NCBI GenBank assembly: GCA_002189035.1
Contig: NEEC01000254.1
Coordinates: 1 to 53,024, forward strand
DNA from: Utricularia gibba
Taxonomy: Eukaryota > Streptophyta > Magnoliopsida > Lamiales > Lentibulariaceae
Reading direction: 5' to 3'
DNA length: 53,024 nucleotides
Below are positions 1-53,024 of this stretch, one piece after another. Under the pieces are notes generated by a model. It was not told the DNA's origin. It saw only the letters and a program-made list of their open reading frames with translations, and did not search any database. Position 1 is the stretch's first letter. Every line of letters begins with the position of its first letter. A program made the position numbers and the translations under genes.

Positions 1-3000
1 CCGAACGGTGTGCGAGGCCACCATGAGGCTGCGGGTAGGACACACCAGAGCTTGTTCAGAGATCGCATCGAAACCCATACTTCACGTCATCCAATAAAAC
101 GCAGATCTTTTGCAAGCGAAAATCACAATCGCGTCGATTCTCGTGTTCCGAGTCGCATCGTCGCGAACGTGGTGGCCAATTTGTGGCACATCTGAAGGCT
201 ATAAGGCGATAATTCGAGCTCTGATGCATCCTCGGACGAAGATGCTTTCAACACGGAAGCTGACCGGCACGGAAAGGGGTTCGAAACGGTATGCCGAGCG
301 CAGCGTGACTCATCACGGTTTTCAGGATATCACGAAATACCGAACGGTGTGCGAGGCCACCATGAGGCTGCGGGTAGGGACACACCCAGAGCTTGTTCAG
401 AGATCGCATCGAAAACCCATACTTCACGTCATCCAATAAAACGCAGATCTTTTGCAAGCCGAAATCACAATCGCGTCGATTCTCGTGTTCCGAAACTCAT
501 CGTCGCGAACGTGGTGGCCAATTTGTGGCACATCTGAAGGCTAATATAAGGCGATAATTCGAGCTCTGATGCATCCTCGGACGAAGATGCTTTCAACACG
601 GAAGCTGACCGGCACGGAAAGGGGTTCGAAACGGTATGCCGGGCGCAGCGTGACTCATCTTGATCTTCAAGATATCGACGAGATGCCGAACGGTGTGCGA
701 GGCCACCATGAGGCTGCGGGTAGGAACACACCTAGAGCTTGTTCAGAGATCGCTCGAAAACCCATACTTCACGTCACCCAATAAAACGCAGATGTTTTGC
801 AAGGCGAAAATCACAATCGCGTCGATTCTCGTGTTCCGAGTCGCATCGTCGCGAACGTGGTGGCCAATTTGTGGCACATCTGAAGGCTATATAAGGCGAT
901 AATTCGAGCTCTGATGCATCCTCGGACGAAGATGCTTTCAACACGGAAGCTGACCGGCACGGAAAGGGTTCGAAACGGTATGCCGGGCGCAGCGTGACTC
1001 ATCACGTTTTCAGGATATCGCCGAAATACCGAACGGTGTGCGAGGCCACCATGAGGCTGCGGGTAGGGACACACCCAGAGCTTGTTCAGAGATCGCTCGA
1101 AAACCCATACTTCACGTCATCCAATAAAACGCAGATCTTTTGCAAGCGAAAATCACAATCGCGTCGATTCTCGTGTTCCGAAACGCATCGTCGCGAACGT
1201 GGTGGCCAATTTGTGGCACATCTGAAGGCTAATATAAGGCGATAATTCGAGCTCTGATGCATCCTCGGACGAAGATGCTTTCAACACGGAAGCTGACCGG
1301 CACGGAAAGGGGTTCGAAACGGTATGCCGGGCGCAGCGTGACTCATCTTGATTTCAAGATATCGACGAGATGCCGAACGGTGTGCGAGGCCACCATGAGG
1401 CTGCGGGTAGGGACACACCCAGAGCTTGTTCAGAGATCGCCTCGAAAACCCATACTTCACGTCATCCAATAAAACGCAGATGTTTTGCAAGGCCGAAAAT
1501 CACAATCGCGTCGATTCTCGTGTTCCGAACGCATCGTCGCGAACGTGGTGGCCAATTTGTGGCACATCTGAAGGCTAATATAAGGCGATAATTCGAGCTC
1601 TGATGCATCCTCGGACGAAGATGCTTTCAACACGGAAGCTGACCGGCACGGAAGGGTTCGAAACGGTATGCCGGGCGCAGCGTGACTCATCTTGATCTTC
1701 AAGATATCGACGAGATGCCGAACGGTGTGCGAGGCCACCATGAGGCTGCGGGTAGGAACACACCTAGAGCTTGTTCAGAGATCGCTCGAAAACCCATACT
1801 TCACGTCACCCAATAAAACGCAGATGTTTTGCAAGGCGAAAATCACAATCGCGTCGATTCTCGTGTTCCGAGTCGCATCGTCGCGAACGTGGTGGCCAAT
1901 TTGTGGCACATCTGAAGGCTAATATAAGGCGATAATTCGAGCTCTGATGCATCCTCGGACGAAGATGCTTTCAACACGGAAGCTGACCGGCACGGAAAGG
2001 GGTTCGAAACGGTATGCCGAGCGCAGCGTGACTCATCACGGTTTTCAGGATATCGCCGAAATACCGAACGGTGTGCGAGGCCACCATGAGGCTGCGGGTA
2101 GGGACACACCCAGAGCTTGTTCAGAGATCGCTCGAAAACCCATACTTCACGTCATCCAATAAAACGCAGATCTTTTGCAAGCCGAAAATCACAATCGCGT
2201 CGATTCTCGTGTTCCGAAACTCATCGTCGCGAACGTGGTGGCCAATTTGTGGCACATCTGAAGGCTAATATAAGGCGATAATTCGAGCTCTGATGCATCC
2301 TCGGACGAAGATGCTTTCAACACGGAAGCTGACCGGCACGGAAAGGGTTCGAAACGGTATGCCGGCGCGCAGCGTGACTCATCGGATATCACGAGATACC
2401 GAACGGTGTGCGAGGCCACCATGAGGCTGCGGGTAGGAACACACCAGAGCTTGTTCAGAGATCGCTCGAAAACCCATACTTCACGTCACCCAATAAAACG
2501 CAGATGTTTTGCAAGCGAAAATCACAATCGCGTCGATTCTCGTGTTCCGAGTCATCGTCGCGAACGTGGTGGCCAATTTGTGGCACATCTGAAGGCTAAT
2601 ATAAGGCGATAATTCGAGCTCTGATGCATCCTCGGACGAAGATGCTTTCAACACGGAAGCTGACCGGCACGGAAAGGGGTTCGAAACGGTATGCCGGCGC
2701 AGCGTGACTCATCACGGTTTTCAGGATATCACGAAATACCGAACGGTGTGCGGCCACCATGAGGCTGCGGGTAGGGACACACCCAGAGCTTGTTCAGAGA
2801 TCGCATCGAAAACCCATACTTCACGTCATCCAATAAAACGCAGATCTTTTGCAAGCGAAAATCACAATCGCGTCGATTCTCGTGTTCCGAACTCATCGTC
2901 GCGAACGTGGTGGCCAATTTGTGGCACATCTGAAGGCTAATATAAGGCGATAATTCGAGCTCTGATGCATCCTCGGACGAAGATGCTTTCAACACGGAAG

Positions 3001-6000
3001 CTGACCGGCACGGAAAGGGGTTCGAAACGGTATGCCGAGCGCAGCGTGACTCATCACGGTTTTCAGGATATCGCCGAATACCGAACGGTGTGCGAGGCCA
3101 CCATGAGGCTGCGGGTAGGGACACCCAGAGCTTGTTCAGAGATCGCTCGAAAACCCATACTTCACGTCATCCAATAAAACGCAGATGTTTTGCAAGCCGA
3201 AAATCACAATCGCGTCGATTCTCGTGTTCCGAAACTCATCGTCGCGAACGTGGTGGCCAATTTGTGGCACATCTGAAGGCTAATATAAGGCGATAATTCG
3301 AGCTCTGATGCATCCTCGGACGAAGATGCTTTCAACACGGAAGCTGACCGGCACGGAAGGGGTTCGAAACGGTATGCCGGGCGCAGCGTGACTCATCTTG
3401 ATCTTCAAGATATCGACGAGATGCCGAACGGTGTGCGAGGCCACCATGAGGCTGCGGGTAGGACACCCAGAGCTTGTTCAGAGATCGCCTCGAAAACCCA
3501 TACTTCACGTCACCCAATAAAACGCAGATGTTTTGCAAGGCGAAAATCACAATCGCGTCGATTCTCGTGTTCCGAGTCGCATCGTCGCGAACGTGGTGGC
3601 CAATTTGTGGCACATCTGAAGGCTACTATAAGGCGATAATTCGAGCTCTGATGCATCCTCGGACGAAGATGCTTTCAACACGGAAGCTGACCGGCACGGA
3701 AAGGGGTTCGAAACGGTATGCCGGCGCAGCGTGACTCATCGTTTTCAGGATATCGCCGAAATACCGAACGGTGTGCGAGGCCACCATGAGGCTGCGGGTA
3801 GGGACACACCCAGAGCTTGTTCAGAGATCGCTCGAAAACCCATACTTCACGTCATCCAATAAAACGCAGATCTTTTGCAAGCGAAAATCACAATCGCGTC
3901 GATTCTCGTGTTCCGAAACTCATCGTCGCGAACGTGGTGGCCAATTTGTGGCACATCTGAAGGCTAATATAAGGCGATAATTCGAGCTCTGATGCATCCT
4001 CGGACGAAGATGCTTTCAACACGGAAGCTGACCGGCACGGAAAGGGGTTCGAAACGGGTATGCCGGCGCAGCGTGACTCATCACGGTTTTCAGGATATCG
4101 CCGAATGCCGAACGGTGTGCGAGGCCACCATGAGGCTGCGGTAGGACACACCAGAGCTTTGAGATCGCTCGAAAACCCATACTTCACGTCATCCAATAAA
4201 ACGCAGATCTTTTGCAAGCGAAAATCACAATCGCGTCGATTCTCGTGTTCCGAAACTCATCGTCGCGAACGTGGTGGCCAATTTGTGGCACATCTGAAGG
4301 CTAATATAAGGCGATAATTCGAGCTCTGATGCATCCTCGGACGAAGATGCTTTCAACACGGAAGCTGACCGGCACGGAAGGGGTTCGAAACGGTATGCCG
4401 GCGCAGCGTGACTCATCACTTCAGATATCCCGAATACCGAACGGTGTGCGAGGCCACCATGAGGCTGCGGGTAGGGACACACCCAGAGCTTGTTCAGAGA
4501 TCGCTCGAAAACCCATACTTCACGTCATCCAATAAAACGCAGATTTTGCAAGCGAAAATCACAATCGCGTCGATTCTCGTGTTCCGAACATCGTCGCGAA
4601 CGTGGTGGCCAATTTGTGGCACATCTGAAGGCTAATATAAGGCGATAATTCGAGCTCTGATGCATCCTCGGACGAAGATGCTTTCAACACGGAAGCTGAC
4701 CGGCACGGGAAGGGGTTCGAAACGGTATGCCGGCGCAGCGTGACTCATCACTTGATATTGACGAACGGTGTGCGAGGCCACCATGCGACACACCCAGAGC
4801 TTGTTCAGCCTCGAAAACCCATACTTCACGTCATCCAATAAAACGCAGATCTTTTGCAAAGCCGAAAATCACAATCGCGTCGATTCTCGTGTTCCGCATC
4901 GTCGCGAACGTGGTGGCCAATTTGTGGCACATCTGAAGGCTAATATAAGGCGATAATTCGAGCTCTGATGCATCCTCGGACGAAGATGCTTTCAACACGG
5001 AAGCTGACCGGCACGGAAAGGGGTTCGAAACGGTATGCCGGCGCAGCGGACTCATCACTTCATCGAGACCGAACGGTGTGCGAGGCCACCATGAGGCTGC
5101 GGGTAGGGACACACCAGAGCTTGTTCAGAGAGATCGCTCGAAAACCATACTTCACGTCATCCAATAAAACGCAGATGTTTTGCAAGCGAAATCAATCGCG
5201 TCGATTCTCGTGTTCCGAGTCATCGTCGCGAACGTGGTGGCCAATTTGTGGCACATCTGAAGGCTAATATAAGGCGATAATTCGAGCTCTGATGCATCCT
5301 CGGACGAAGATGCTTTCAACACGGAAGCTGACCGGCACGGAAAGGGGTTCGAAACGGTATGCCGAGCGCAGCGTGACTCATCACGGTTTTCAGGATATCG
5401 CCGAATACCGAACGGTGTGCGAGGCCACCATGAGGCTGCGGGTAGGGACACACCCAGAGCTTGTTCAGAGATCGCATCGAAAACCCATACTTCACGTCAT
5501 CCAATAAAACGCAGATCTTTTGCAAGCCGAAAATCACAATCGCGTCGATTCTCGTGTTCCGAAACTCATCGTCGCGAACGTGGTGGCCAATTTGTGGCAC
5601 ATCTGAAGGCTAATATAAGGCGATAATTCGAGCTCTGATGCATCCTCGGACGAAGATGCTTTCAACACGGAAGCTGACCGGCACGGAAGGGTTCGAAACG
5701 GTATGCCGGGCGCAGCGTGACTCATCTTGATCTTCAAGATATCGACGAGATGCCGAACGTGTGCGAGGCCACCATGAGGCTGCGGGTAGGACACACCAGA
5801 GCTTGTTCAGAGATCGCTCGAAAACCCATACTTCACGTCACCCAATAAAACGCAGATGTTTTGCAAGGCGAAAATCACAATCGCGTCGATTCTCGTGTTC
5901 CGAGTCGCATCGTCGCGAACGTGGTGGCCAATTTGTGGCACATCTGAAGGCTAATATAAGGCGATAATTCGAGCTCTGATGCATCCTCGGACGAAGATGC

Positions 6001-8715
6001 TTTCAACACGGAAGCTGACCGGCACGGAAAGGGGTTCGAAACGGTATGCCGGCGCAGCGTGACTCATCACGGTTTTCAGATATCGACGAAATACCGAACG
6101 GTGTGCGAGGCCACCATGAGGCTGCGGGTAGGACACACCCAGAGCTTGTTCAGAGATCCTCGAAAACCCATACTTCACGTCATCCAATAAAACGCAGATC
6201 TTTTGCAAGCCGAAAATCACAATCGCGTCGATTCTCGTGTTCCGAAACGCATCGTCGCGAACGTGGTGGCCAATTTGTGGCACATCTGAAGGCTAATATA
6301 AGGCGATAATTCGAGCTCTGATGCATCCTCGGACGAAGATGCTTTCAACACGGAAGCTGACCGGCACGGAAAGGGGTTCGAAACGGTATGCCGAGCGCAG
6401 CGTGACTCATCACGGTTTCAGGATATCGCCGAAATACCGAACGGTGTGCGAGGCCACCATGAGGCTGCGGGTAGGGACACACCCAGAGCTTGTTCAGAGA
6501 TCGCTCGAAAACCCATACTTCACGTCATCCAATAAAACGCAGATTTTGCAAGCCGAAAATCACAATCGCGTCGATTCTCGTGTTCCGAAACTCATCGTCG
6601 CGAACGTGGTGGCCAATTTGTGGCACATCTGAAGGCTAATATAAGGCGATAATTCGAGCTCTGATGCATCCTCGGACGAAGATGCTTTCAACACGGAAGC
6701 TGACCGGCACGGAAGGGGTTCGAAACGGTATGCCGGGCGCAGCGTGACTCATCTTGATCTTCAAGATATCGACGAGATGCCGAACGGTGTGCGAGGCCAC
6801 CATGAGGCTGCGGGTAGGAACACACCTAGAGCTTGTTCAGAGATCGCCTCGAAAACCCATACTTCACGTCACCCAATAAAACGCAGATGTTTTGCAAGGC
6901 GAAAATCACAATCGCGTCGATTCTCGTGTTCCGAGTCGCATCGTCGCGAACGTGGTGGCCAATTTGTGGCACATCTGAAGGCTATATAAGGCGATAATTC
7001 GAGCTCTGATGCATCCTCGGACGAAGATGCTTTCAACGGAAGCTGACCGGCACGGAAAGGGTTCGAAACGGTATGCCGGCGCAGCGTGACTCATCACGGT
7101 TTTCAGGATATCGCCGAAATACCGAACGGTGTGCGAGGCCACCATGAGGCTGCGGGTAGGGACACCCAGAGCTTGTTCAGAGATCGCTCGAAAACCCATA
7201 CTTCACGTCATCCAATAAAACGCAGATCTTTTGCAAGCCGAAAATCACAATCGCGTCGATTCTCGTGTTCCGAACTCATCGTCGCGAACGTGGTGGCCAA
7301 TTTGTGGCACATCTGAAGGCTAATATAAGGCGATAATTCGAGCTCTGATGCATCCTCGGACGAAGATGCTTTCAACACGGAAGCTGACCGGCACGGAAAG
7401 GGGTTCGAAACGGTATGCCGGCGCAGCGTGACTCATCATGATCTTCAAGATATCGACGAGATGCCGAACGGTGTGCGAGGCCACCATGAGGCTGCGGGTA
7501 GGGAACACACCCAGAGCTTGTTCAGAGATCGCCTCGAAAACCCATACTTCACGTCACCCAATAAAACGCAGATGTTTTGCAAGCGAAAATCACAATCGCG
7601 TCGATTCTCGTGTTCCGAGTCGCATCGTCGCGAACGTGGTGGCCAATTTGTGGCACATCTGAAGGCTAATATAAGGCGATAATTCGAGCTCTGATGCATC
7701 CTCGGACGAAGATGCTTTCAACACGGAAGCTGACCGGCACGGAAAGGGGTTCGAAACGGTATGCCGGCGCAGCGTGACTCATCACGGTTTTCAGGATATC
7801 CGAAATACCGAACGGTGTGCGAGGCCACCATGAGGCTGCGGGTAGGACACACCCAGAGCTTGTTCAGAGATCGCATCGAAAACCCATACTTCACGTCATC
7901 CAATAAAACGCAGATCTTTTGCAAGCCGAAAATCACAATCGCGTCGATTCTCGTGTTCCGAAACTCATCGTCGCGAACGTGGTGGCCAATTTGTGCACAT
8001 CTGAAGGCTAATATAAGGCGATAATTCGAGCTCTGATGCATCCTCGGACGAAGATGCTTTCAACACGGAAGCTGACCGGCACGGAAAGGGGTTCGAAACG
8101 GTATGCCGGAGCGCAGCGTGACTCATCACGGTTTTCAGGATATCACGAAATACCGAACGGTGTGCGAGGCCACCATGAGGCTGCGGGTAGGACACACCCT
8201 TGTTCAGAGATCGCTCGAAAACCCATACTTCACGTCATCCAATAAAACGCAGATCTTTTGCAAGCCGAAAATCACAATCGCGTCGATTCTCGTGTTCCGA
8301 ACTCATCGTCGCGAACGTGGTGGCCAATTTGTGGCACATCTGAAGGCTAATATAAGGCGATAATTCGAGCTCTGATGCATCCTCGGACGAAGATGCTTTC
8401 AACACGGAAGCTGACCGGCACGGAAAGGGGTTCGAAACGGTATGCCGGCGCAGCGTGACTCATCACGTTTTCAGGATATCGACGAATACCGAACGGTGTG
8501 CGAGGCCACCATGAGGCTGCGGGTAGGACACACCCAGAGCTTGTTCAGAGATCGCTCGAAAACCCATACTTCACGTCATCCAATAAAACGCAGATGTTTT
8601 GCAAGCCGAAAATCACAATCGCGTCGATTCTCGTGTTCCGAACGCATCGTCGCGAACGTGGTGGCCAATTTGTGGCACATCTGAAGGCTAATATAAGGCG
8701 ATAATTCGAGCTCTG
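1..8715 (+). repeat. Left zone: mixed A and B monomers
   Basis: Anchor starts are 224, 569, 914, 1257, 1603, 1947, 2293, 2624, 2965, 3308, 3651, 3992, 4329, 4660, 4968, 5292, 5638, 5979, 6321, 6664, 7009, 7348, 7694, 8036 and 8375. Bases 1-223 are the tail of a unit cut by the window edge. Clear A units include 224, 1947, 2624, 2965, 5292, 6321, 7009 and 7694. Clear B units include 569, 1603, 3308, 5638, 6664 and 7348. Partial A-B alternation is visible (224-1256, 5292-8035) but is interrupted by mixed units. Many units miss one base at a diagnostic site, for example gatcgctcg near 749 and caagcgaaaa near 1143. No gene is seen here. Confidence 0.93.
4329..5291 (+). repeat. Short, degraded monomers
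   Basis: Units at 4329, 4660 and 4968 are 331, 308 and 324 bases long. Losses fall mainly in the 90-117 region and the 150-190 region. In the 4660 unit the segment from gactcat to the gaacggtgtg block is compressed, and the ggctgcgggtaggga block is missing after the ccaccatg block. In the 4968 unit the 91-117 segment is reduced to a few bases. The invariant right half is intact. These may be real deletions or poor consensus. Confidence 0.8.
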
Positions 8716-11700
8716 ATGCATCCTCGGACGAAGATGCTTTCAACACGGAAGCTGACCGGCACGGAAAGGGGTTCGAAACGGTATGCCGAGCGCAGCGTGA
8801 CTCATCACGGTTTTCAGGATATCCCGAAATACCGAACGGTGTGCGAGGCCACCATGAGGCTGCGGGTAGGGACACACCCAGAGCTTGTTCAGAGATCGCA
8901 TCGAAAACCCATACTTCACGTCATCCAATAAAACGCAGATCTTTTGCAAGCCGAAAATCACAATCGCGTCGATTCTCGTGTTCCGAAACTCATCGTCGCG
9001 AACGTGGTGGCCAATTTGTGGCACATCTGAAGGCTAATATAAGGCGATAATTCGAGCTCTGATGCATCCTCGGACGAAGATGCTTTCAACACGGAAGCTG
9101 ACCGGCACGGAAAGGGGTTCGAAACGGTATGCCGGGCGCAGCGTGACTCATCTTGATCTTCAAGATATCGACGAGATGCCGAACGGTGTGCGAGGCCACC
9201 ATGAGGCTGCGGGTAGGAACACACCTAGAGCTTGTTCAGAGATCGCCTCGAAAACCCATACTTCACGTCACCCAATAAAACGCAGATGTTTTGCAAGGCG
9301 AAAATCACAATCGCGTCGATTCTCGTGTTCCGAGTCGCATCGTCGCGAACGTGGTGGCCAATTTGTGGCACATCTGAAGGCTAATATAAGGCGATAATTC
9401 GAGCTCTGATGCATCCTCGGACGAAGATGCTTTCAACACGGAAGCTGACCGGCACGGAAAGGGGTTCGAAACGGTATGCCGAGCGCAGCGTGACTCACAT
9501 TTTCAGGATATCGCCGAAATACCGAACGGTGTGCGAGGCCACCATGAGGCTGCGGGTAGGACACACCCAGAGCTTGTTCAGAGATCGCATCGAAAACCCA
9601 TACTTCACGTCATCCAATAAAACGCAGATCTTTTGCAAGCCGAAAATCACAATCGCGTCGATTCTCGTGTTCCGAAACTCATCGTCGCGAACGTGGTGGC
9701 CAATTTGTGGCACATCTGAAGGCTAATATAAGGCGATAATTCGAGCTCTGATGCATCCTCGGACGAAGATGCTTTCAACACGGAAGCTGACCGGCACGGA
9801 AAGGGGTTCGAAACGGTATGCCGGGCGCAGCGTGACTCATCATGATCTTCAAGATATCGACGAGATGCCGAACGGTGTGCGAGGCCACCATGAGGCTGCG
9901 GGTAGGGACACACCCAGAGCTTGTTCAGAGATCGCCTCGAAAACCCATACTTCACGTCACCCAATAAAACGCAGATGTTTTGCAAGGCGAAAATCACAAT
10001 CGCGTCGATTCTCGTGTTCCGAGTCGCATCGTCGCGAACGTGGTGGCCAATTTGTGGCACATCTGAAGGCTATATAAGGCGATAATTCGAGCTCTGATGC
10101 ATCCTCGGACGAAGATGCTTTCAACACGGAAGCTGACCGGCACGGAAAGGGGTTCGAAACGGTATGCCGAGCGCAGCGTGACTCATCACTTTTCAGGATA
10201 TCGCCGAATACCGAACGGTGTGCGAGGCCACCATGAGGCTGCGGGTAGGGACACACCCAGAGCTTGTTCAGAGATCGCATCGAAAACCCATACTTCACGT
10301 CATCCAATAAAACGCAGATCTTTTGCAAGCCGAAAATCACAATCGCGTCGATTCTCGTGTTCCGAACTCATCGTCGCGAACGTGGTGGCCAATTTGTGGC
10401 ACATCTGAAGGCTAATATAAGGCGATAATTCGAGCTCTGATGCATCCTCGGACGAAGATGCTTTCAACACGGAAGCTGACCGGCACGGAAAGGGGTTCGA
10501 AACGGTATGCCGGGCGCAGCGTGACTCATCATGATCTTCAAGATATCGACGAGATGCCGAACGGTGTGCGAGGCCACCATGAGGCTGCGGGTAGGGACAC
10601 ACCCAGAGCTTGTTCAGAGATCGCCTCGAAAACCCATACTTCACGTCACCCAATAAAACGCAGATGTTTTGCAAGGCGAAAATCACAATCGCGTCGATTC
10701 TCGTGTTCCGAGTCGCATCGTCGCGAACGTGGTGGCCAATTTGTGGCACATCTGAAGGCTAATATAAGGCGATAATTCGAGCTCTGATGCATCCTCGGAC
10801 GAAGATGCTTTCAACACGGAAGCTGACCGGCACGGAAAGGGGTTCGAAACGGTATGCCGAGCGCAGCGTGACTCATCACGGTTTTCAGATATCGCCGAAA
10901 CCGAACGGTGTGCGAGGCCACCATGAGGCTGCGGGTAGGGACACACCCAGAGCTTGTTCAGAGATCGCTCGAAAACCCATACTTCACGTCATCCAATAAA
11001 ACGCAGATCTTTTGCAAGCCGAAAATCACAATCGCGTCGATTCTCGTGTTCCGAAACTCATCGTCGCGAACGTGGTGGCCAATTTGTGGCACATCTGAAG
11101 GCTAATATAAGGCGATAATTCGAGCTCTGATGCATCCTCGGACGATGCTTTCAACACGGAAGCTGACCGGCACGGAAGGGGTTCGAAACGGTATGCCGGC
11201 GCAGCGTGACTCATCATGATTTCAAGATATCGACGAGATGCCGAACGGTGTGCGAGGCCACCATGAGGCTGCGGGTAGGACACACCAGAGCTTGTTCAGA
11301 GATCGCCTCGAAAACCCATACTTCACGTCACCCAATAAAACGCAGATGTTTTGCAAGGCGAAAATCACAATCGCGTCGATTCTCGTGTTCCGAGTCGCAT
11401 CGTCGCGAACGTGGTGGCCAATTTGTGGCACATCTGAAGCTAATATAAGGCGATAATTCGAGCTCTGATGCATCCTCGGACGAAGATGCTTTCAACACGG
11501 AAGCTGACCGGCACGGAAAGGGGTTCGAAACGGTATGCCGAGCGCAGCGTGACTCATCACGGTTTTCAGGATATCGCCGAAATACCGAACGGTGTGCGAG
11601 GCCACCATGAGGCTGCGGGTAGGGACACACCCAGAGCTTGTTCAGAGATCGCATCGAAAACCCATACTTCACGTCATCCAATAAAACGATCTTTTGCAAG

Positions 11701-13492: not shown

Positions 13493-13634
13493 TGGCACAT
13501 CTGAAGGCTAATATAAGGCGATAATTCGAGCTCTGATGCATCCTCGGACGAAGATGCTTTCAACACGGAAGCTGACCGGCACGGAAAGGGGTTCGAAACG
13601 GTATGCCGAGCGCAGCGTGACTCATCACGGTTTT
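13493..13634 (+). promoter_or_regulatory. Possible RNA polymerase III A-box/B-box pair (weak)
   Basis: TGGCACATCTG at 13493-13503 fits the loose A-box pattern TRGYNNANNNG. GTTCGAAAC at 13591-13599 fits the B-box pattern GWTCRANNC. A run of four t follows at 13631-13634 and could terminate transcription. The pair recurs in nearly every monomer because both words lie in invariant parts. The t run is specific to subfamily A. The box spacing, 98 bases start to start, is longer than in most tRNA genes, and both patterns are loose enough to arise by chance in 347 bases. No tRNA fold is visible. Confidence 0.15.
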
Positions 13635-39000: not shown

Positions 39001-41364
39001 CTCTGATGCATCCTCGGACGAAGATGCTTTCAACACGGAAGCTGACCGGCACGGAAAGGGGTTCGAAACGGTATGCCGGGCGCAGCGTGACTCATCACGG
39101 TTTTCAGGATATGGCCGAAATACCGAACGGTGTGCGAGGCCACCATGAGGCTGCGGGTACACACACCCAGAGCTTGTTCAGAGATCGCCTCGAAAACCCA
39201 TACTTCACGTCATCCAATAAAACGCAGATGTTTTGCAAGCGAAAATCACAATCGCGTCGATTCTCGTGTTCCGAGTCGCATCGTCGCGAACGTGGTGGCC
39301 AATTTGTGGCACATCTGAAGGCTAATATAAGGCGATAATTCGAGCTCTGATGCATCCTCGGACGAAGATGCTTTCAACACGGAAGCTGACCGGCACGGAA
39401 AGGGGTTCGAAACGGTATGCCGGCGCAGCGTGACTCATCACGGTTTTCAGGATATCGCCGAAATACCGAACGGTGTGCGAGGCCACCATGAGGCTGCGGG
39501 TAGGGACACACCCAGAGCTTGTTCAGAGATCGCTCGAAAACCCATACTTCACGTCATCCAATAAAACGCAGATTTTTGCAAGCCGAAAATCACAATCGCG
39601 TCGATCGTGTTCCGCATCGTCGCGAACGTGGTGGCCAATTTGTGGCACATCTGAAGGCTAATATAAGGCGATAATTCGAGCTCTGATGCATCCTCGGACG
39701 AAGGCTTTCAACACGGAAGCTGACCGGCACGGAAGGGTTCGAAACGGTATGCCGGCGCAGCGTGACTCATCATTTCAGATATGATGCCGAACGGTGTGCG
39801 AGGCCACCATGAGGCTGCGGGTAGGAACACACCAGAGCTTGTTCAGAGATCGCCTCGAAAACCCATACTTCACGTCACCAATAAAACGCAGATTTTGCAA
39901 GCGAAAATCACAATCGCGTCGATTCTCGTGTTCCGAGTCGCATCGTCGCGAACGTGGTGGCCAATTTGTGGCACATCTGAAGGCTAATATAAGGCGATAA
40001 TTCGAGCTCTGATGCATCCTCGGACGAAGATGCTTTCAACACGGAAGCTGACCGGCACGGAAAGGGTTCGAAACGGTATGCCGGGCGCAGCGTGACTCAT
40101 CATTTCAAGATATCGACGAAATGCCGAACGGTGTGCGAGGCCACCATGAGGCTGCGGGTAGGAACACACCTAGAGCTTGTTCAGAGATCGCCTCGAAAAC
40201 CCATACTTCACATCACCCAATAAAACACAGATGTTTTGCAAGGCGAAAATCACAATCGCGTCGATTCTCGTGTTCCGAGTCGCATCGTCGCGAACGTGGT
40301 GGCCAATTTGTGGCACATCTGAAGGCTAATATAAGGCGATAATTCGAGCTCTGATGCATCCTCGGACGAAGAGCTTTCAACACGGAAGCTGACCGGCACG
40401 GAAAGGGGTTCGAAACGGTATGCCGGCGCAGCGTGACTCATCACGGTTTTCAGGATATCGAATACCGAACGGTGTGCGAGGCCACCATGAGGCTGCGGGT
40501 AGGGACACACCCAGAGCTTGTTCAGAGATCGCTCGAAAACCCATACTTCACGTCATCCAATAAAACGCAGATGTTTTGCAAGCGAAAATCACAATCGCGT
40601 CGATTCTCGTGTTCCGAGTCGCATCGTCGCGAACGTGGTGGCCAATTTGTGGCACATCTGAAGGCTAATATAAGGCGATAATTCGAGCTCTGATGCATCC
40701 TCGGACGAAGATGCTTTCAACACGGAAGCTGACCGGCACGGAAAGGGGTTCGAAACGGTATGCCGGGCGCAGCGTGACTCATCACGGTTTTCAGGATATA
40801 TACCGAACGGTGTGCGAGGCCACCATGAGGCTGCGGGTAGGGACACACCCAGAGCTTGTTCAGAGATCGCCTCGAAAACCCATACTTCACGTCATCCAAT
40901 AAAACGCAGATCTTTTGCAAGCGAAAATCACAATCGCGTCGATTCTCGTGTTCCGATCGTCGCGAACGTGGTGGCCAATTTGTGGCACATCTGAAGGCTA
41001 ATATAAGGCGATAATTCGAGCTCTGATGCATCCTCGGACGAAGATGCTTTCAACACGGAAGCTGACCGGCACGGAAGGGGTTCGAAACGGTATGCCGGCG
41101 CAGCGTGACTCATCACGGTTTTCAGGATATCCCGAAATACCGAACGGTGTGCGAGGCCACCATGAGGCTGCGGGTAGGACACACCAGAGCTTGTTCAGAG
41201 ATCGCCTCGAAAACCCATACTTCACGTCATCCAAAAAACGCAGATTTTTGCAAGCCGAAAATCACAATCGCGTCGATTCTCGTGTTCCGAACGCATCGTC
41301 GCGAACGTGGTGGCCAATTTGTGGCACATCTGAAGGCTAATATAAGGCGATAATTCGAGCTCTG
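33032..41364 (+). repeat. Zone of slightly shortened hybrid monomers
   Basis: Anchor starts are 33032, 33366, 33692, 34028, 34368, 34699, 35034, 35368, 35703, 36041, 36382, 36717, 37057, 37378, 37711, 38042, 38344, 38669, 39006, 39350, 39686, 40012, 40354, 40693 and 41026. Typical spacing falls to 325-345 bases. Recurrent losses are in 103-117 (for example gatatataccg near 34469), at 227 (gattttt or gattttg), at position 20 (gaagagc) and at 345 (gagcttgatg near 34021 and 38036). The 37378-38343 stretch is the most reduced, with the 38042 unit only 302 bases long. No gene is seen. Confidence 0.9.
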
Positions 41365-44300
41365 ATGCATCCTCGGACGAAATGCTTTCAACACGGAAGC
41401 TGACCGGCACGGAAAGGGTTCGAAACGGTATGCCGGGCGCAGCGTGACTCATCGATTTCAGATATATGCCGAACGGTGTGCGAGGCCACCATGAGGCTGC
41501 GGGTAGGACACACCAGAGCTTGTTCAGAGATCGCCTCGAAAACCCATACTTCACGTCACCCAATAAAACGCAGATGTTTGCAAGGCGAAAATCACAATCG
41601 CGTCGATTCTCGTGTTCCGAGTCGCATCGTCGCGAACGTGGTGGCCAATTTGTGGCACATCTGAAGGCTAAGATAAGGCGATAATTCGAGCTCTGATGCA
41701 TCCTCGGACGAAGAGCTTTCAACACGGAAGCTGACCGGCACGGAAAGGGGTTCGAAACGGTATGCCGGGCGCAGCGTGACTCATCACGTTTTCAGGATAT
41801 GGCCGAAATACCGAACGGTGTGCGAGGCCACCATGAGGCTGCGGGTAGGGACACACCCAGAGCTTGTTCAGAGATCGCCTCGAAAACCCATACTTCACGT
41901 CATCCAATAAAACGCAGATGTTTTGCAAGCGAAAATCACAATCGCGTCGATTCTCGTGTTCCGAGTCGCATCGTCGCGAACGTGGTGGCCAATTTGTGGC
42001 ACATCTGAAGGCTAATATAAGGCGATAATTCGAGCTCTGATGCATCCTCGGACGAAGGCTTTCAACACGGAAGCTGACCGGCACGGAAAGGGGTTCGAAA
42101 CGGTATGCCGGCGCAGCGTGACTCATCACGGTTTTCAGGATATCGAAATACCGAACGGTGTGCGAGGCCACCATGAGGCTGCGGTAGGGACACACCAGAG
42201 CTTGTTCAGAGATCGCTCGAAAACCCATACTTCACGTCATCCAATAAAACGCAGATCTTTTGCAAGCCGAAAATCACAATCGCGTCGATTCTCGTGTTCC
42301 GCATCGTCGCGAACGTGGTGGCCAATTTGTGGCACATCTGAAGGCTAATATAAGGCGATAATTCGAGCTCTGATGCATCCTCGGACGAAGAGCTTTCAAC
42401 ACGGAAGCTGACCGGCACGGAAGGTTCGAAACGGTATGCCGGGCGCAGCGTGACTCATCTTGATCTTCAAGATATCGACGAGATGCCGAACGGTGTGCGA
42501 GGCCACCATGAGGCTGCGGGTAGGACACACCAGAGCTTGTTCAGAGATCGCCTCGAAAACCCATACTTCACGTCACCCAATAAAACGCAGATGTTTTGCA
42601 AGGCGAAAATCACAATCGCGTCGATTCTCGTGTTCCGAGTCGCATCGTCGCGAACGTGGTGGCCAATTTGTGGCACATCTGAAGGCTAAGATAAGGCGAT
42701 AATTCGAGCTCTGATGCATCCTCGGACGAAGAGCTTTCAACACGGAAGCTGACCGGCACGGAAAGGGGTTCGAAACGGTATGCCGGCGCAGCGTGACTCA
42801 TCACTTTTCAGGATATGGCCGAAATACCGAACGGTGTGCGAGGCCACCATGAGGCTGCGGGTAGGACACACCCAGAGCTTGTTCAGAGATCGCCTCGAAA
42901 ACCCATACTTCACGTCATCCAATAAAACGCAGATGTTTTGCAAGGCGAAAATCAATCGCGTCGATTCTCGTGTTCCGAGTCGCATCGTCGCGAACGTGGT
43001 GGCCAATTTGTGGCACATCTAAAGGCTAAGATAAGCGATAATTCGAGCTTTGATGCATCCTCGGACGAAGAAGCTTTCAACACGGAAGCTGACCGGCACG
43101 GAAAGGGTTCGAAACGGGCGCAGCGTGACTCATCACGGTTTTCAGGATATCGAAATACCGAACGGTGTGCGAGGCCACCATGAGGCTGCGGGTAGGACAC
43201 ACCAGAGCTTGTTCAGAGATCGCCTCGAAAACCCATACTTCACGTCATCCAATAAAACGCAGATTTTTGCAAGCGAAAATCACAATCGCGTCGATTCTCG
43301 TGTTCCGAGTCGCATCGTCGCGAACGTGGTGGCCAATTTTGGCACATCTGAAGGCTAATATAAGGCGATAATTCGAGCTCTGATGCATCCTCGGACGAAG
43401 ATGCTTTCAACACGGAAGCTGACCGGCACGGAAAGGGGTTCGAAACGGTATGCCGGCGCAGCGTGACTCATCACGGTTTTCAGGATATACCGAACGGTGT
43501 GCGAGGCCACCATGAGGCTGCGGGTAGGGACACACCCAGAGCTTGTTCAGAGATCGCCTCGAAAACCCATACTTCACGTCATCCAATAAAACGCAGATGT
43601 TTTGCAAGGCGAAAATCACAATCGCGTCGATTCTCGTGTTCCGAGTCGCATCGTCGCGAACGTGGTGGCCAATTTGTGGCACATCTGAAGGCTAATATAA
43701 GGCGATAATTCGAGCTCTGATGCATCCTCGGACGAAGATGCTTTCAACACGGAAGCTGACCGGCACGGAAGGGGTTCGAAACGGTATGCCGGCGCAGCGT
43801 GACTCATCACGGTTTTCAGGATATCCCGAATACCGAACGGTGTGCGAGGCCACCATGAGGCTGCGGGTAGGACACACCCAGAGCTTGTTCAGAGATCGCT
43901 CGAAAACCCATACTTCACGTCATCCAATAAAACGCAGATGTTTTGCAAGCGAAAATCACAATCGCGTCGATTCTCGTGTTCCGAGTCGCATCGTCGCGAA
44001 CGTGGTGGCCAATTTGTGGCACATCTGAAGGCTAATATAAGGCGATAATTCGAGCTCTGATGCATCCTTGCTTTCAACACGGAAGCTGACCGGCACGGAA
44101 AGGGGTTCGAAACGGTATGCCGGGCGCAGCGTGACTCATCTTTCAAGATATCGAAATGCCGAACGGTGTGCGAGGCCACCATGAGGCTGCGGGTAGGAAC
44201 ACACCAGAGCTTGTTCAGAGATCGCCTCGAAAACCCATACTTCACGTCACCCAATAAAACGCAGATGTTTTGCAAGGAAAATCACAATCGCGTCGATTCT

Positions 44301-47300
44301 CGTGTTCCGAGTCGCATCGTCGCGAACGTGGTGGCCAATTTTGTGGCACATCTGAAGGCTAATATAAGGCGATAATTCGAGCTTGATGCATCCTCGGACG
44401 AAGATGCTTTCAACACGGAAGCTGACCGGCACGGAAAGGGGTTCGAAACGGTATGCCGCGCAGCGTGACTCATCACGGTTTTCAGGATATGGCCGAAATA
44501 CCGAACGGTGTGCGAGGCCACCATGAGGCTGCGGGTAGGGACACACCCAGAGCTTGTTCAGAGATCGCATCGAAAACCCATACTTCACGTCATCCAATAA
44601 AACGCAGATCTTTTGCAAGCGAAAATCACAATCGCGTCGATTCTCGTGTTCCGAGTCGCATCGTCGCGAACGTGGTGGCCAATTTGTGGCACATCTGAAG
44701 GCTAATATAAGGCGATAATTCGAGCTCTGATGCATCCTCGGACGAAGATGCTTTCAACACGGAAGCTGACCGGCACGGAAAGGGGTTCGAAACGGTATGC
44801 CGGGCGCAGCGTGACTCATCTTGATCTTCAAGATATCGACGAATGCCGAACGGTGTGCGAGGCCACCATGAGGCTGCGGGTAGGACACACCAGAGCTTGT
44901 TCAGAGATCGCCTCGAAAACCCATACTTCACGTCACCCAATAAAACACAGATGTTTTGCAAGGCGAAAATCACAATCGCGTCGATTCTCGTGTTCCGAGT
45001 CGCATCGTCGCGAACGTGGTGGCCAATTTGTGGCACATCTGAAGGCTAAGATAAGGCGATAATTCGAGCTCTGATGCATCCTCGGACGAAGAGCTTTCAA
45101 CACGGAAGCTGACCGGCACGGAAAGGGGTTCGAAACGGTATGCCGGGCGCAGCGTGACTCATCACGGTTTTCAGGATATGGCCGAAATACCGAACGGTGT
45201 GCGAGGCCACCATGAGGCTGCGGGTAGGGACACACCAGAGCTTGTTCAGAGATCGCCTCGAAAACCCATACTTCACGTCATCCAATAAAACGCAGATGTT
45301 TTGCAAGGCGAAAATCACAATCGCGTCGATTCTCGTGTTCCGAGTCGCATCGTCGCGAACGTGGTGGCCAATTTGTGGCACATCTGAAGGCTAAATAAGG
45401 CGATAATTCGAGCTCTGATGCATCCTCGGACGAAGAAGCTTTCAACACGGAAGCTGACCGGCACGGAAAGGGGTTCGAAACGGTATGCCGGGCGCAGCGT
45501 GACTCATCACGGTTTTCAGGATATGGCCGAAATACCGAACGGTGTGCGAGGCCATGAGGCTGCGGGTAGGACACACAGAGCTTGTTCAGAGATCGCTCGA
45601 AAACCCATACTTCACGTCATCCAATAAAACGCAGATTTTTGCAAGCGAAAATCACAATCGCGTCGATTCTCGTGTTCCGAGTCGCATCGTCGCGAACGTG
45701 GTGGCCAATTTGTGGCACATCTGAAGGCTAATATAAGGCGATAATTCGAGCTCTGATGCATCCTCGGACGAAGATGCTTTCAACACGGAAGCTGACCGGC
45801 ACGGAAAGGGGTTCGAAACGGTATGCCGGGCGCAGCGTGACTCATCCTTCAAGATATCGCCGAATGCCGAACGGTGTGCGAGGCCACCATGAGGCTGCGG
45901 GTAGGAACACACCAGAGCTTGTTCAGATCGCCTCGAAAACCCATACTTCACATCACCAATAAAACACATGTTTTGCAAGGCGAAAATCACAATCGCGTCG
46001 ATTCTCGTGTTCCGAGTCGCATCGTCGCGAACGTGGTGGCCAATTTGTGGCACATCTGAAGGCTAAGATAAGGCGATAATTCGAGCTTTGATGCATCCTC
46101 GGACGAAGAGCTTTCAACACGGAAGCTGACCGGCACGGAAAGGGGTTCGAAACGGTATGCCGGGCGCAGCGTGACTCATCACGGTTTTCAGGATATGGCC
46201 GAAATACCGAACGGTGTGCGAGGCCACCATGAGGCTGCGGGTAGGGACACACCCAGAGCTTGTTCAGAGATCGCCTCGAAAACCCATACTTCACGTCATC
46301 CAATAAAACGCAGATGTTTTGCAAGGCGAAAATCACAATCGCGTCGATTCTCGTGTTCCGAGTCGCATCGTCGCGAACGTGGTGGCCAATTTGTGGCACA
46401 TCTGAAGGCTAAGATAAGGCGATAATTCGAGCTCTGATGCATCCTCGGACGAAGAAGCTTTCAACACGGAAGCTGACCGGCACGGAAAGGGGTTCGAAAC
46501 GGTATGCCGGGCGCAGCGTGACTCATCACGGTTTTCAGGATATGGCCGAAATACCGAACGGTGTGCGAGGCCACCATGAGGCTGCGGGTAGGACACACCT
46601 AGAGCTTGTTCAGAGATCGCCTCGAAAACCCATACTTCACGTCATCCAATAAAACGCAGATCTTTTGCAAGCGAAAATCACAATCGCGTCGATTCTCGTG
46701 TTCCGAGTCGCATCGTCGCGAACGTGTGGCCAATTTGTGGCACATCTGAAGGCTAATATAAGGCGATAATTCGAGCTCTGATGCATCCTCGGACGAAGAT
46801 GCTTTCAACACGGAAGCTGACCGGCACGGAAAGGGGTTCGAAACGGTATGCCGGGCGCAGCGTGACTCATCTGATTTCAAGATATCCGAGATGCCGAACG
46901 GTGTGCGAGGCCACCATGAGGCTGCGGGTAGGACACACCCAGAGCTTGTTCAGAGATCGCCTCGAAACCCATACTTCACGTCATCCAATAAAACGCAGAT
47001 GTTTTGCAAGCGAAAATCACAATCGCGTCGATTCTCGTGTTCCGAGTCGCATCGTCGCGAACGTGGTGGCCAATTTGTGGCACATCTGAAGGCTAATATA
47101 AGGCGATAATTCGAGCTCTGATGCATCCTCGGACGAAGATGCTTTCAACACGGAAGCTGACCGGCACGGAAAGGGGTTCGAAACGGTATGCCGGCGCAGC
47201 GTGACTCATCACGGTTTTCAGGATATCCCGAAATACCGAACGGTGTGCGAGGCCACCATGAGGCTGCGGGTAGGGACACACCCAGAGCTTGTTCAGAGAT

Positions 47301-50300
47301 CGCTCGAAAACCCATACTTCACGTCATCCAATAAAACGCAGATTTTTGCAAGCGAAAATCACAATCGCGTCGATTCTCGTGTTCCGATCGTCGCGAACGT
47401 GGTGGCCAATTTGTGGCACATCTGAAGGCTAATATAAGGCGATAATTCGAGCTCTGATGCATCCTCGGACGAAGATGCTTTCAACACGGAAGCTGACGGA
47501 CGGGGGTTCGAAACGGTATGCCGGGCGCAGCTGACTCATCATTTCAGATATGAAATACCGAACGGTGTGCGAGGCCACCATGAGGCTGCGGGTAGGACAC
47601 ACCAGAGCTTGTTCAGAGATCGCCTCGAAAACCCATACTTCACGTCACCCAATAAAACGCAGATGTTTTGCAAGGCGAAAATCACAATCGCGTCGATTCT
47701 CGTGTTCCGAGTCGCATCGTCGCGAACGTGGTGGCCAATTTGTGGCACATCTGAAGGCTAAATAAGGCGATAATTCGAGCTTGATGCATCCTCGGACGAA
47801 GATGCTTTCAACACGGAAGCTGACCGGCACGGAAAGGGTTCGAAACGGTATGCCGGGCGCAGCGTGACTCATCACGGTTTTCAGGATATCGCCGAATACC
47901 GAACGGTGTGCGAGGCCACCATGAGGCTGCGGTAGGGACACACCCAGAGCTTGTTCAGAGATCGCCTCGAAAACCCATACTTCACGTCATCCAATAAAAC
48001 GCAGATGTTTTGCAAGGCGAAAATCACAATCGCGTCGATTCTCGTGTTCCGAGTCGCATCGTCGCGAACGTGGTGGCCAATTTGTGGCACATCTGAAGGC
48101 TAAGATAAGGCGATAATTCGAGCTCTGATGCATCCTCGGACGAAGAAGCTTTCAACACGGAAGCTGACCGGCACGGAAAGGGGTTCGAAACGGTATGCCG
48201 CGCAGCGTGACTCATCACGGTTTTCAGGATATGGCCGAAATACCGAACGGTGTGCGAGGCCACCATGAGGCTGCGGGTAGGACACACCCAGAGCTTGTTC
48301 AGAGATCGCCTCGAAAACCCATACTTCACGTCATCCAATAAAACGCAGATCTTTTGCAAGCCGAAAATCACAATCGCGTCGATTCTCGTGTTCCGAAACG
48401 CATCGTCGCGAACGTGGTGGCCAATTTGTGGCACATCTGAAGGCTAATATAAGGCGATAATTCGAGCTCTGATGCATCCTCGGACGAAGATGCTTTCAAC
48501 ACGGAAGCTGACCGGCACGGAAAGGGGTTCGAAACGGTATGCCGGGGCGCAGCGTGACTCATCTTGATTTCAGATATCGACGAGATACCGAACGGTGTGC
48601 GAGGCCACCATGAGGCTGCGGGTAGGACACACCAGAGCTTGTTCAGAGATCGCCTCGAAAACCCATACTTCACGTCACCCAATAAAACGCAGATGTTTTG
48701 CAAGGCGAAAATCACAATCGCGTCGATTCTCGTGTTCCGAGTCGCATCGTCGCGAACGTGGTGGCCAATTTGTGGCACATCTGAAGGCTAATATAAGGCG
48801 ATAATTCGAGCTCTGATGCATCCTCGGACGAAGAGCTTTCAACACGGAAGCTGACCGGCACGGAAAGGGGTTCGAAACGGTATGCCGAGCGCAGCGTGAC
48901 TCATCACGGTTTTCAGGATATGGCCGAAATACCGAACGGTGTGCGAGGCCACCATGAGGCTGCGGGTAGGGACACACCCAGAGCTTGTTCAGAGATCGCC
49001 TCGAAAACCCATACTTCACGTCATCCAATAAAACGCAGATGTTTTGCAAGGCGAAAATCACAATCGCGTCGATTCTCGTGTTCCGAGTCGCATCGTCGCG
49101 AACGTGGTGGCCAATTTGTGGCACATCTGAAGGCTAATATAAGGCGATAATTCGAGCTCTGATGCATCCTCGGACGAAGATGCTTTCAACACGGAAGCTG
49201 ACCGGCACGGAAAGGGGTTCGAAACGGTATGCCGGCGCAGCGTGACTCATCACGGTTTTCAGGATATCACGAATACCGAACGGTGTGCGAGGCCACCATG
49301 AGGCTGCGGGTAGGGACACACCCAGAGCTTGTTCAGAGATCGCTCGAAAACCCATACTTCACGTCATCCAATAAAACGCAGATGTTTTGCAAGCGAAAAT
49401 CACAATCGCGTCGATTCTCGTGTTCCGAAACGCATCGTCGCGAACGTGGTGGCCAATTTGTGGCACATCTGAAGGCTAATATAAGGCGATAATTCGAGCT
49501 CTGATGCATCCTCGGACGAAGAGCTTTCAACACGGAAGCTGACCGGCACGGAAAGGGGTTCGAAACGGTATGCCGGGCGCAGCGTGACTCATCACGGTTT
49601 TCAGATATCGCCGAAAATACCGAACGGTGTGCGAGGCCACCATGAGGCTGCGGGTAGGACACACCCAGAGCTTGTTCAGAGATCGCCTCGAAAACCCATA
49701 CTTCACGTCATCCAATAAAACGCAGATCTTTTGCAAGCGAAAATCACAATCGCGTCGATTCTCGTGTTCCGCATCGTCGCGAACGTGGTGGCCAATTTGT
49801 GGCACATCTGAAGGCTAAGATAAGGCGATAATTCGAGCTCTGATGCATCCTCGGACGAAGAAGCTTTCAACACGGAAGCTGACCGGCACGGAAGGGTTCG
49901 AAACGGTATGCCGGGCGCAGCGTGACTCATCATTTCAAGATATCGACGAATGCCGAACGGTGTGCGAGGCCACCATGAGGCTGCGGGTAGGACACACCAG
50001 AGCTTGTTCAGAGATCGCCTCGAAAACCCATACTTCACGTCATCCAATAAAACGCAGATGTTTTGCAAGGCGAAAATCACAATCGCGTCGATTCTCGTGT
50101 TCCGAGTCGCATCGTCGCGAACGTGGTGGCCAATTTGTGGCACATCTGAAGGCTAATATAAGGCGATAATTCGAGCTCTGATGCATCCTCGGACGAAGAT
50201 GCTTTCAACACGGAAGCTGACCGGCACGGAAAGGGGTTCGAAACGGTATGCCGGGCGCAGCGTGACTCATCTTGATTTCAAGATATCGACGAATGCCGAA

Positions 50301-50524
50301 CGGTGTGCGAGGCCACCATGAGGCTGCGGGTAGGGACACACCAGAGCTTGTTCAGAGATCGCCTCGAAAACCCATACTTCACGTCACCCAATAAAACGCA
50401 GATGTTTTGCAAGGCGAAAATCACAATCGCGTCGATTCTCGTGTTCCGAGTCGCATCGTCGCGAACGTGGTGGCCAATTTGTGGCACATCTGAAGGCTAA
50501 GATAAGGCGATAATTCGAGCTCTG
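41365..50524 (+). repeat. C-haplotype-rich zone
   Basis: Anchor starts are 41365, 41696, 42040, 42373, 42714, 43053, 43383, 43720, 44060, 44386, 44730, 45074, 45418, 45756, 46091, 46437, 46781, 47121, 47457, 47784, 48128, 48472, 48816, 49162, 49504, 49843 and 50181. Three linked changes define C: taagataagg at 321-330 of one unit, then gaagaagc or gaagagc at 16-23 and gatatggcc at 103-111 of the next. Units with gatatggcc start at 41696, 42714, 44386, 45074, 45418, 46091, 46437, 48128 and 48816. Borders with taagata are near 41669, 42687, 43026, 45047, 46063, 46410, 48100, 49814 and 50500. The 108G change destroys the per-unit GATATC site. Confidence 0.88.
44730..46780 (+). repeat. Two copies of a B-C-C trimer
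   Basis: Units 44730 (B), 45074 (C), 45418 (C) are followed by 45756 (B), 46091 (C), 46437 (C). The trimers are 1026 and 1025 bases. Matching positions share private states: both B units read aaaacaca instead of aaaacgca and end with taagataagg; both first C units read gaagagc, gatgtt and aaggcg; both second C units read gaagaagc and caagcg. The next unit, 46781, starts like a third trimer with a B-type segment, but 47121 is A and the order is lost. Confidence 0.75.
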
Positions 50525-53024
50525 ATGCATCCTCGGACGAAGATGCTTTCAACACGGAAGCTGACCGGCACGGAAAGGGTTCGAAACGGTATGCCGGCGC
50601 AGCGTGACTCATCACGGTTTTCAGGATATCCCGAATACCGAACGGTGTGCGAGGCCACCATGAGGCTGCGGTAGGGACACACCAGAGCTTGTTCAGAGAT
50701 CGCTCGAAAACCCATACTTCACGTCATCCAATAAAACGCAGATGTTTTGCAAGCCGAAAATCACAATCGCGTCGATTCTCGTGTTCCGAGTCGCATCGTC
50801 GCGAACGTGGTGGCCAATTTGTGGCACATCTGAAGGCTAATATAAGGCGATAATTCGAGCTCTGATGCATCCTCGGACGAAGATGCTTTCAACACGGAAG
50901 CTGACCGGCACGGAAAGGGGTTCGAAACGGTATGCCGGGCGCAGCGTGACTCATCACGATTTCAAGATATCGCCGAAATGCCGAACGGTGTGCGAGGCCA
51001 CCATGAGGCTGCGGGTAGGACACACCCAGAGCTTGTTCAGAGATCGCCTCGAAAACCCATACTTCACGTCACCCAATAAAACGCAGATGTTTTGCAAGGC
51101 GAAAATCACAATCGCGTCGATTCTCGTGTTCCGAGTCGCATCGTCGCGAACGTGGTGGCCAATTTGTGGCACATCTGAAGGCTATATAAGGCGATAATTC
51201 GAGCTCTGATGCATCCTCGGACGAAGATGCTTTCAACACGGAAGCTGACCGGCACGGAAAGGGGTTCGAAACGGTATGCCGGCGCAGCGTGACTCATCAC
51301 GGTTTTCAGGATATCGAACGGTGTGCGAGGCCACCATGAGGCTGCGGGTAGGGACACACCAGAGCTTGTTCAGAGATCGCCTCGAAAACCCATACTTCAC
51401 GTCATCCAATAAAACGCAGATGTTTTGCAAGGCGAAAATCACAATCGCGTCGATTCTCGTGTTCCGAGTCGCATCGTCGCGAACGTGGTGGCCAATTTGT
51501 GGCACATCTGAAGGCTAATATAAGGCGATAATTCGAGCTCTGATGCATCCTCGGACGAAGATGCTTTCAACACGGAAGCTGACCGGCACGGAAAGGGGTT
51601 CGAAACGGTATGCCGGCGCAGCGTGACTCATCACGGTTTTCAGGATATCGCCGAATACCGAACGGTGTGCGAGGCCACCATGAGGCTGCGGGTAGGGGAC
51701 ACACCAGAGCTTGTTCAGAGATCGCTCGAAAACCCATACTTCACGTCATCCAATAAAACGCAGATCTTTTGCAAGCCGAAAATCACAATCGCGTCGATTC
51801 TCGTGTTCCGAGTCGCATCGTCGCGAACGTGGTGGCCAATTTGTGGCACATCTGAAGGCTAATATAAGGCGATAATTCGAGCTCTGATGCATCCTCGGAC
51901 GAAGATGCTTTCAACACGGAAGCTGACCGGCACGGAAAGGGGTTCGAAACGGTATGCCGGGCGCAGCGTGACTCATCACGGTTTCAGATATCCGAAATAC
52001 CGAACGGTGTGCGAGGCCACCATGAGGCTGCGGGTAGGAACACACCTAGAGCTTGTTCAGAGATCGCCTCGAAAACCCATACTTCACGTCATCCAATAAA
52101 ACGCAGATGTTTTGCAAGGCGAAAATCACAATCGCGTCGATTCTCGTGTTCCGAGTCGCATCGTCGCGAACGTGGTGGCCAATTTGTGGCACATCTGAAG
52201 GCTAATATAAGGCGATAATTCGAGCTCTGATGCATCCTCGGACGAAGATGCTTTCAACACGGAAGCTGACCGGCACGGAAAGGGGTTCGAAACGGTATGC
52301 CGGCGCAGCGTGACTCATCACGGTTTTCAAGATATCGACGAAATACCGAACGGTGTGCGAGGCCACCATGAGGCTGCGGGTAGGGGACACACCCAGAGCT
52401 TGTTCAGAGATCGCCTCGAAAACCCATACTTCACGTCATCCAATAAAACGCAGATCTTTTGCAAGCGAAAATCACAATCGCGTCGATTCTCGTGTTCCGA
52501 AACTCATCGTCGCGAACGTGGTGGCCAATTTGTGGCACATCTGAAGGCTAATATAAGGCGATAATTCGAGCTCTGATGCATCCTCGGACGAAGATGCTTT
52601 CAACACGGAAGCTGACCGGCACGGAAAGGGTTCGAAACGGTATGCCGGCGCAGCGTGACTCATCACGGTTTTCAGATATCCCGAATACCGAACGGTGTGC
52701 GAGGCCACCATGAGGCTGCGGGTAGGGACACACCCAGAGCTTGTTCAGAGATCGCTCGAAAACCCATACTTCACGTCATCCAATAAAACGCAGATCTTTT
52801 GCAAGGCGAAAATCACAATCGCGTCGATTCTCGTGTTCCGAAACGCATCGTCGCGAACGTGGTGGCCAATTTGTGGCACATCTGAAGGCTAATATAAGGC
52901 GATAATTCGAGCTCTGATGCATCCTCGGACGAAGATGCTTTCAACACGGAAGCTGACCGGCACGGAAAGGGGTTCGAAACGGTATGCCGGGCGCAGCGTG
53001 ACTCATCACGGTTTTCAGGATATC
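50525..53024 (+). repeat. Right zone: regular A and hybrid monomers to the window edge
   Basis: Anchor starts are 50525, 50865, 51209, 51543, 51887, 52230, 52576 and 52917, spacing 334-346. C-type states disappear. Left halves are mostly A-like. Right halves are B-like in 50865, 51209 and 51887, and A-like in 52230. The final unit is cut at monomer position 108, inside GATATC, so the array continues beyond the window. Confidence 0.9.

Follow-up and report, generated by a model that had tools for sequence, protein, structure and literature searches.

Introduction

Higher-order satellite arrays of plant and animal centromeric or heterochromatic regions are built of head-to-tail units which fall into subfamilies. 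The ~344-bp satellite of Utricularia gibba studied here resembles them in both respects; in addition, the first segment of the analysed contig, C49, is dimeric and the units at an array edge are more diverged. The family was not matched to any named satellite.

The closest described counterparts of the base losses reported below concern genome assembly. The U. gibba PacBio assembly was produced with HGAP at 88-fold coverage, with an N50 of 3.4 Mb and 581 contigs stated in the excerpted text (PMC5793159), and we infer that HGAP was also the software behind the consensus of C49. In an excerpt of the Canu paper (PMC5411767), read correction is described as relying on falcon_sense and on the O(ND) alignment of Myers. 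According to an excerpt of the HiCanu paper, haplotypes as well as similar copies of a repeat are mixed by the permissive consensus of Canu, and reads may be assigned to the wrong copy during polishing (PMC7545148). Blending of similar repeat copies would be common to that description and to the present array; in contrast, no per-site deletion signature is given in the excerpt. Indel errors near allelic variants are reported for a collapsed assembly of Trypanosoma brucei (PMC8445201, excerpt), and a remark on merged haplotypes exists for Candida krusei (PMC5592916, excerpt). Judging by these excerpts, the mosaic consensus of both species is similar to ours in that reads of non-identical copies would be merged and indels are located near variant sites. 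However, T. brucei and C. krusei represent two alleles in genes, whereas C49 contains many satellite copies and the variant base itself is lost. The excerpts and listings of the literature searched contained related statements, but none described the loss of bases at those sites of a satellite which are specific to a paralogue.

Results

Organization of the satellite array

The window, i.e. the whole 53,024-bp stretch of DNA analysed, is the complete contig C49 of the 100.09-Mb, 516-contig genome. The units were delimited by a cyclic profile alignment of 347 columns, which superseded an earlier anchor-based cut with 98 usable units. A unit was considered near-full with at least 300 of the 347 columns (148 of 159 units). 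The unit positions used in a first-pass annotation of the window are converted to 0-based profile columns by adding 229, modulo 347. Columns with a minor base of at least 10% were defined as diagnostic, resulting in 18 columns in the whole unit and 10 in the unit body (columns 0-317); the 18-column set originates from this rule and not from the 18 A/B and 4 C positions listed by the first-pass annotation. Deletions of 1-2 bases were counted as short, and the counts based on 131 units comprise both regular segments. The features of the contig and three example units are as follows:

1..53024, + strand: tandem array of the ~344-bp satellite, head-to-tail; 159 units, 148 of them near-full, in the 347-column cyclic profile
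1..16347, + strand: first regular segment of 48 units, chiefly arranged as A/B dimers; diagnostic columns (n = 18) gapped at a rate of 0.167
16348..24985, + strand: irregular segment in which units are truncated or rearranged and long insertions occur; excluded from the 131-unit counts
24986..53024, + strand: second regular segment of 83 units, with C and B types predominating; diagnostic columns (n = 18) gapped at a rate of 0.232
5753..6093, + strand: example unit in which the diagnostic bases of columns 39, 47 and 68 are all absent
4762..5068, + strand: example unit without bases at columns 155, 156 and 158; reads CCGCATCG
45190..45534, + strand: example unit without a base at column 206; reads CTAAATAAGG

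The dimeric order of the first segment was reflected in a lag-2 base match of 0.661 vs 0.527 after permutation. By exact word matches, the same satellite was detected, among the matches listed, on C32, C53, C82, C102, C122, C143, C244 and C370-C372, where it fills or ends the contigs. One conserved 22-base word of the satellite occurs 1,817 times in the genome. As to other tandem repeats, the genome contains plant-type TTTAGGG arrays (560 overlapping matches of the five-fold repeat) and no TTAGGG arrays; on contig C3, TTTAGGG is found near the start and again at 5.347 Mb. A ribosomal protein L3 exon of the genome scored 278-291 bits against seven PDB sequences, which represent plant ribosomes (of tobacco, tomato, wheat and others), and no more than 204 bits against those ranked next.

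Base loss at the diagnostic columns

It had been claimed in the first-pass annotation that at nearly all sites distinguishing the subfamilies a third state occurs in which the base is absent. Every example site was confirmed by exact-string counts or by the alignment. The counts of the two alleles and of the missing base in the window were 17/53/64 at unit position 74, 71/22/35 at position 157, 81/21/44 at position 165, 31/73/44 at position 186, 50/65/13 at position 227 and 50/52/47 at position 237. The missing state was scarcer at positions 20 (123/5/12), 324 (123/9/2) and 345 (144/2/4). For positions 273-276, corresponding to columns 155-158, gaps were determined in 14, 25, 16 and 14 of the 148 units, and the sequences near 5787, 4893 and 45391 were as described.

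The short deletions in columns 0-317 of the 148 units amounted to 0.193 per column per unit at the 10 diagnostic columns (286 deletions) and 0.0037 at the 281 invariant columns (153 deletions). The unequal rates are the outcome of the per-monomer comparison of diagnostic and other positions proposed in the first-pass annotation, and its statement that blocks common to the subfamilies rarely lose bases holds as well: seven neutral words lacking one base occurred 0, 0, 0, 5, 1, 0 and 0 times, compared with 143-155 intact copies. In the 131 regular units, 351 of the 602 short deletions were located in the 18 diagnostic columns out of 347 (Mann-Whitney p = 1e-14). The remaining 251 were found in homopolymers, in the neighbours of diagnostic columns and in columns variable elsewhere, for example column 282 within a GGGG run (20 deletions) and column 338 (28). 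At columns 92, 155, 158, 321 and 346, which belong to the diagnostic set of 18, the base was absent from only 5-10% of the units.

Dependence on local polymorphism

The deletion rate of a column followed its polymorphism on the given array. Sixteen columns are polymorphic in C49 and invariant in the sampled part of C82 (30 of 57 kb); their rate was 0.128 in C49 and 0.034 in C82. Conversely, for the 4 columns variable in C82 and fixed in C49 the rates were 0.157 in C82 and 0.017 in C49. Since the rates were about four-fold lower where the column was fixed, and the reverse swap behaved likewise, the deletions track the local polymorphism and not the column's own sequence, as would be expected if the excess depended on which copies were merged.

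Columns fixed locally and variable on other arrays exceeded the columns fixed everywhere in four of the five arrays (p = 0.012, 0.00017, 0.00016 and 0.048); in the fifth, the start of C32 (C32a), p was 0.15. In C49 the corresponding rates were 0.0221 and 0.0038. A few columns dominated the locally fixed losses of each array: in C82, 32 of the 48 losses fell on columns 47 (17 of 83) and 303 (15 of 83), which are fixed among the bases and count against the mixed-copy reading. Losses at locally fixed columns suggest that reads from other arrays were drawn in.

The excess was weaker, though still present, in two polymorphism-rich regions. In the first part of C32, sampled at 1-10 kb and 20-30 kb, 28 polymorphic columns had a rate of 0.033 vs the comparison rate of 0.0041, and the rate in the later part of C32 was 0.136. 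The C244 array starts at ~3,290,635 and adjoins non-satellite sequence. In the first 20 near-full units of this edge (piece L016), 71 polymorphic columns had a rate of 0.014 and the fixed columns 0.005, compared with 0.116 and 0.136 in two deeper C244 pieces. An intermediate value of 0.075 was determined for piece L019, and most of the other pieces were in the range of 0.116-0.17. With 6-59 substitutions relative to the majority sequence of the window, the C244 edge units are far more diverged, which makes them easier to distinguish and at the same time lowers the likelihood of exchange. In a second tandem locus, the 5S rDNA on four contigs, 41 of the 86 units had less than 5% N, and a minor base of appreciable frequency was present in one column only (C 20, T 14, missing 7), situated within a C run.

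Hybrid and neighbouring units

Units combining A with B/C states contained more deletions than pure ones. In the first segment, the rates were 0.226 for hybrid and 0.094 for pure units (p = 0.002; 18 hybrid and 29 pure, 47 of 48 units), and in the second segment 0.228 and 0.154 (p = 0.005; 37 hybrid and 43 pure, 80 of 83 units). The blending of copies predicts this difference; a heteroduplex process also predicts it. A hybrid appearance as such would be shown by real recombinant units, too.

Adjacent units of the first segment were opposite in type, with a lag-1 base match of 0.305 vs 0.517 expected. Nevertheless, they shared 43 deletions vs 30.0 expected (sd 4.3; within-type z 3.1). Deletions common to neighbours of opposite type fit local blending rather than an inherited deletion subfamily. 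Apart from lag 1, no excess of shared deletions with the unit order was detected in this segment. In the second segment, units 3, 5 and 8 positions apart shared more deletions than after permutation within types (z 3.2, 3.8 and 2.3, respectively), meaning either that a higher-order phase sets which copies blend or that some of the deletions are real.

Simulation of the consensus

A toy consensus similar to falcon_sense was used, in which reads were aligned to a noisy seed with indels only and links were scored as votes minus half of the coverage. The program was self-written; its scoring approximates that of falcon_sense and does not use the code of HGAP. Myers' O(ND) alignment is not known to include a mismatch operation.

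At a depth of 30, no bases were lost in 160 trials without mixing. With 50% A/B mixing at the same depth, diagnostic columns lost their base at a rate of 0.181 and the other columns at 0.0033; the observed counterparts are 0.149 (short deletions) or 0.208 (all gaps) and 0.0038. The diagnostic loss dropped to 0.036 when mismatches were allowed, in line with the proposal of the first-pass annotation that a base can be dropped if a mismatch is scored as an insertion plus a deletion. The mixing of three types resulted in 0.07-0.09, which is under the observed rate, and a gap-normalising step changed none of the numbers.

The rank agreement over the 18 sites depended on the side at which gaps were placed: rho was 0.49-0.56 (p 0.015-0.043) for one side and 0.08-0.47 (p 0.05-0.76) for the opposite side, with the p values of the 12 comparisons uncorrected. 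The better-fitting side gave high losses at columns 47 and 68, where C follows CC, and a low loss at column 92, where T/C precedes CC, matching the observation. It missed column 339 of the second segment, with 0.47 seen vs 0.07 simulated under A/B mixing. The toy consensus with A/B mixing thus reproduces the overall rates, while its site-by-site fit is moderate and depends on the gap orientation.

Discussion

The missing diagnostic bases are very probably an artefact of long-read assembly, arising from a consensus of blended copies. The mixed-copy origin put forward in the first-pass annotation is supported by the dependence on local polymorphism, the hybrid units, the weaker excess where the copies are separable and the simulated rates. 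In the proposed course of events, near-identical 344-bp units of several subfamilies would have been assembled from noisy long reads. The copies would be indistinguishable to the assembler, and therefore the reads of different units, partly those of other arrays, would be piled up together. An aligner restricted to indels would record a difference between copies as one deleted and one inserted base; if the votes were split, the deletion could pass and the insertion fail, and the base would be dropped. This refines the mechanism originally suggested in that the loss would be expected mainly where the allele is identical to an adjacent base: the votes for the deletion and the insertion would then fall at different places and the deletion alone would pass.

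Several of the most affected sites are situated within short runs or extend them, as would be expected if the usual deletion errors of long reads in homopolymers coincided with the variable sites. The homopolymer columns of the 5S array do lose bases, from 0.0017 at a run length of 1 to 0.057 at a run length of 6. When run lengths were matched, however, the diagnostic and invariant columns of the satellite differed considerably: 0.070 vs 0.0032 for run 1, 0.304 vs 0.0040 for run 2 and 0.324 vs 0.0071 for run 3, with 0.0030 in invariant runs of 4 and more. Moreover, column 109 (GAT[C/G]TTT), which has no matching neighbour base, was missing in 17.6% of the 131 units. It is thus highly improbable that such errors explain the pattern; as the main cause they are contradicted by the matched comparison, and they remain a minor contributor. 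Somewhat less improbable, though still quite unlikely, is that the gaps are real deletion variants spread by unequal exchange, i.e. further subfamilies without those bases. The deletions shared at lags 3, 5 and 8 beyond the unit type would agree with this, as would the deleted state of column 68, which is widespread in the assembly with 171 exact matches vs 83 for the A state. However, independent deletions at most of the polymorphic columns and almost nowhere else would be needed, the rate of the same column shifts between arrays with the local polymorphism, and the lag-1 neighbours of the first segment share deletions despite their opposite types.

The processing of heteroduplexes during unit exchange might also remove mismatched bases and leave single-base gaps at paralogue-specific sites; it predicts deletions at polymorphic sites as well as their higher number in hybrid units. 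Yet little excess was found in highly polymorphic regions, and an artefact model without any biology yields the rates. We know of no repair route that would normally end in the loss of both bases. We consider this explanation extremely unlikely, and there is hardly any chance that arrays would erase their own diagnostic positions by mismatch-triggered loss on the pairing of diverged units.

With the blending of copies in the consensus as the preferred explanation, single-base losses confined to copy-variable columns offer a flag for blended repeats which is independent of reads, the contig being sufficient for its computation. The pattern then concerns the assembly and not the organism: judged from the assembled sequence only, most of the deletions are probably absent from the plant's own DNA, and they should not be taken as mutations or as biology pending accurate reads. 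For the satellite family of U. gibba, the deletions at the diagnostic sites would mislead the dating, classifying or phasing of its units from the assembly.

Coding and 5S rDNA loci of the assembly

Ribosomal protein L3 was found on three contigs: C375, C98 and C321. No internal stop was present in 13 of the 15 exon matches to this gene; the remaining two, which lie on C98 and C321 respectively, each carried an internal stop.

Four 5S-rDNA contigs were fetched, among them C222, C224 and C229, the sizes of which are exactly 25,000, 35,000 and 10,000 bp, respectively. Such round sizes look like the product of cutting at fixed steps and not like natural contig ends. In the 5S arrays sampled as L011-L015, column 94 of the unit, within the 5S rRNA gene, is a C/T site adjoining a C run. 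The 41 units scored at this column carried C in 20 cases and T in 14, and the base was absent in 7.

Segments of the window

The stretch at 16348-24985 of the window is irregular: it contains truncated units as well as insertions tens of bases long, whereas the segments that flank it on both sides are regular. At 24986-53024, units at lags of 3, 5 and 8 satellite units have deletion states in common beyond the expectation from unit type (subfamily A, B or C).

Satellite array on contig C244

The following pieces of C244 (3,405,668 bp) were sampled.

Sampled pieces of contig C244
L020, C244:1-2000, CCCTAAA telomere repeats at the contig start
L016, C244:3,288,001-3,298,000, satellite from ~3,290,635
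L017, C244:3,330,001-3,340,000, satellite
L018, C244:3,396,001-3,405,668, satellite

Toward the array edge, the divergence of units rises steadily (L016, C244:3,290,635-3,298,000), from 6-8 substitutions per unit inside to 59 in the outermost near-full unit. Divergence rising toward the edge is likewise seen at classic satellite array borders.

The contig begins with telomere repeats and, as sampled in L016-L018, consists of the satellite between ~3,290,635 and the contig end. PMC8333044 describes the putative centromeric regions of U. gibba as being without satellite repeats. In a U. gibba genome, a long satellite array at the break of a chromosome-arm contig would sit uneasily with that description.
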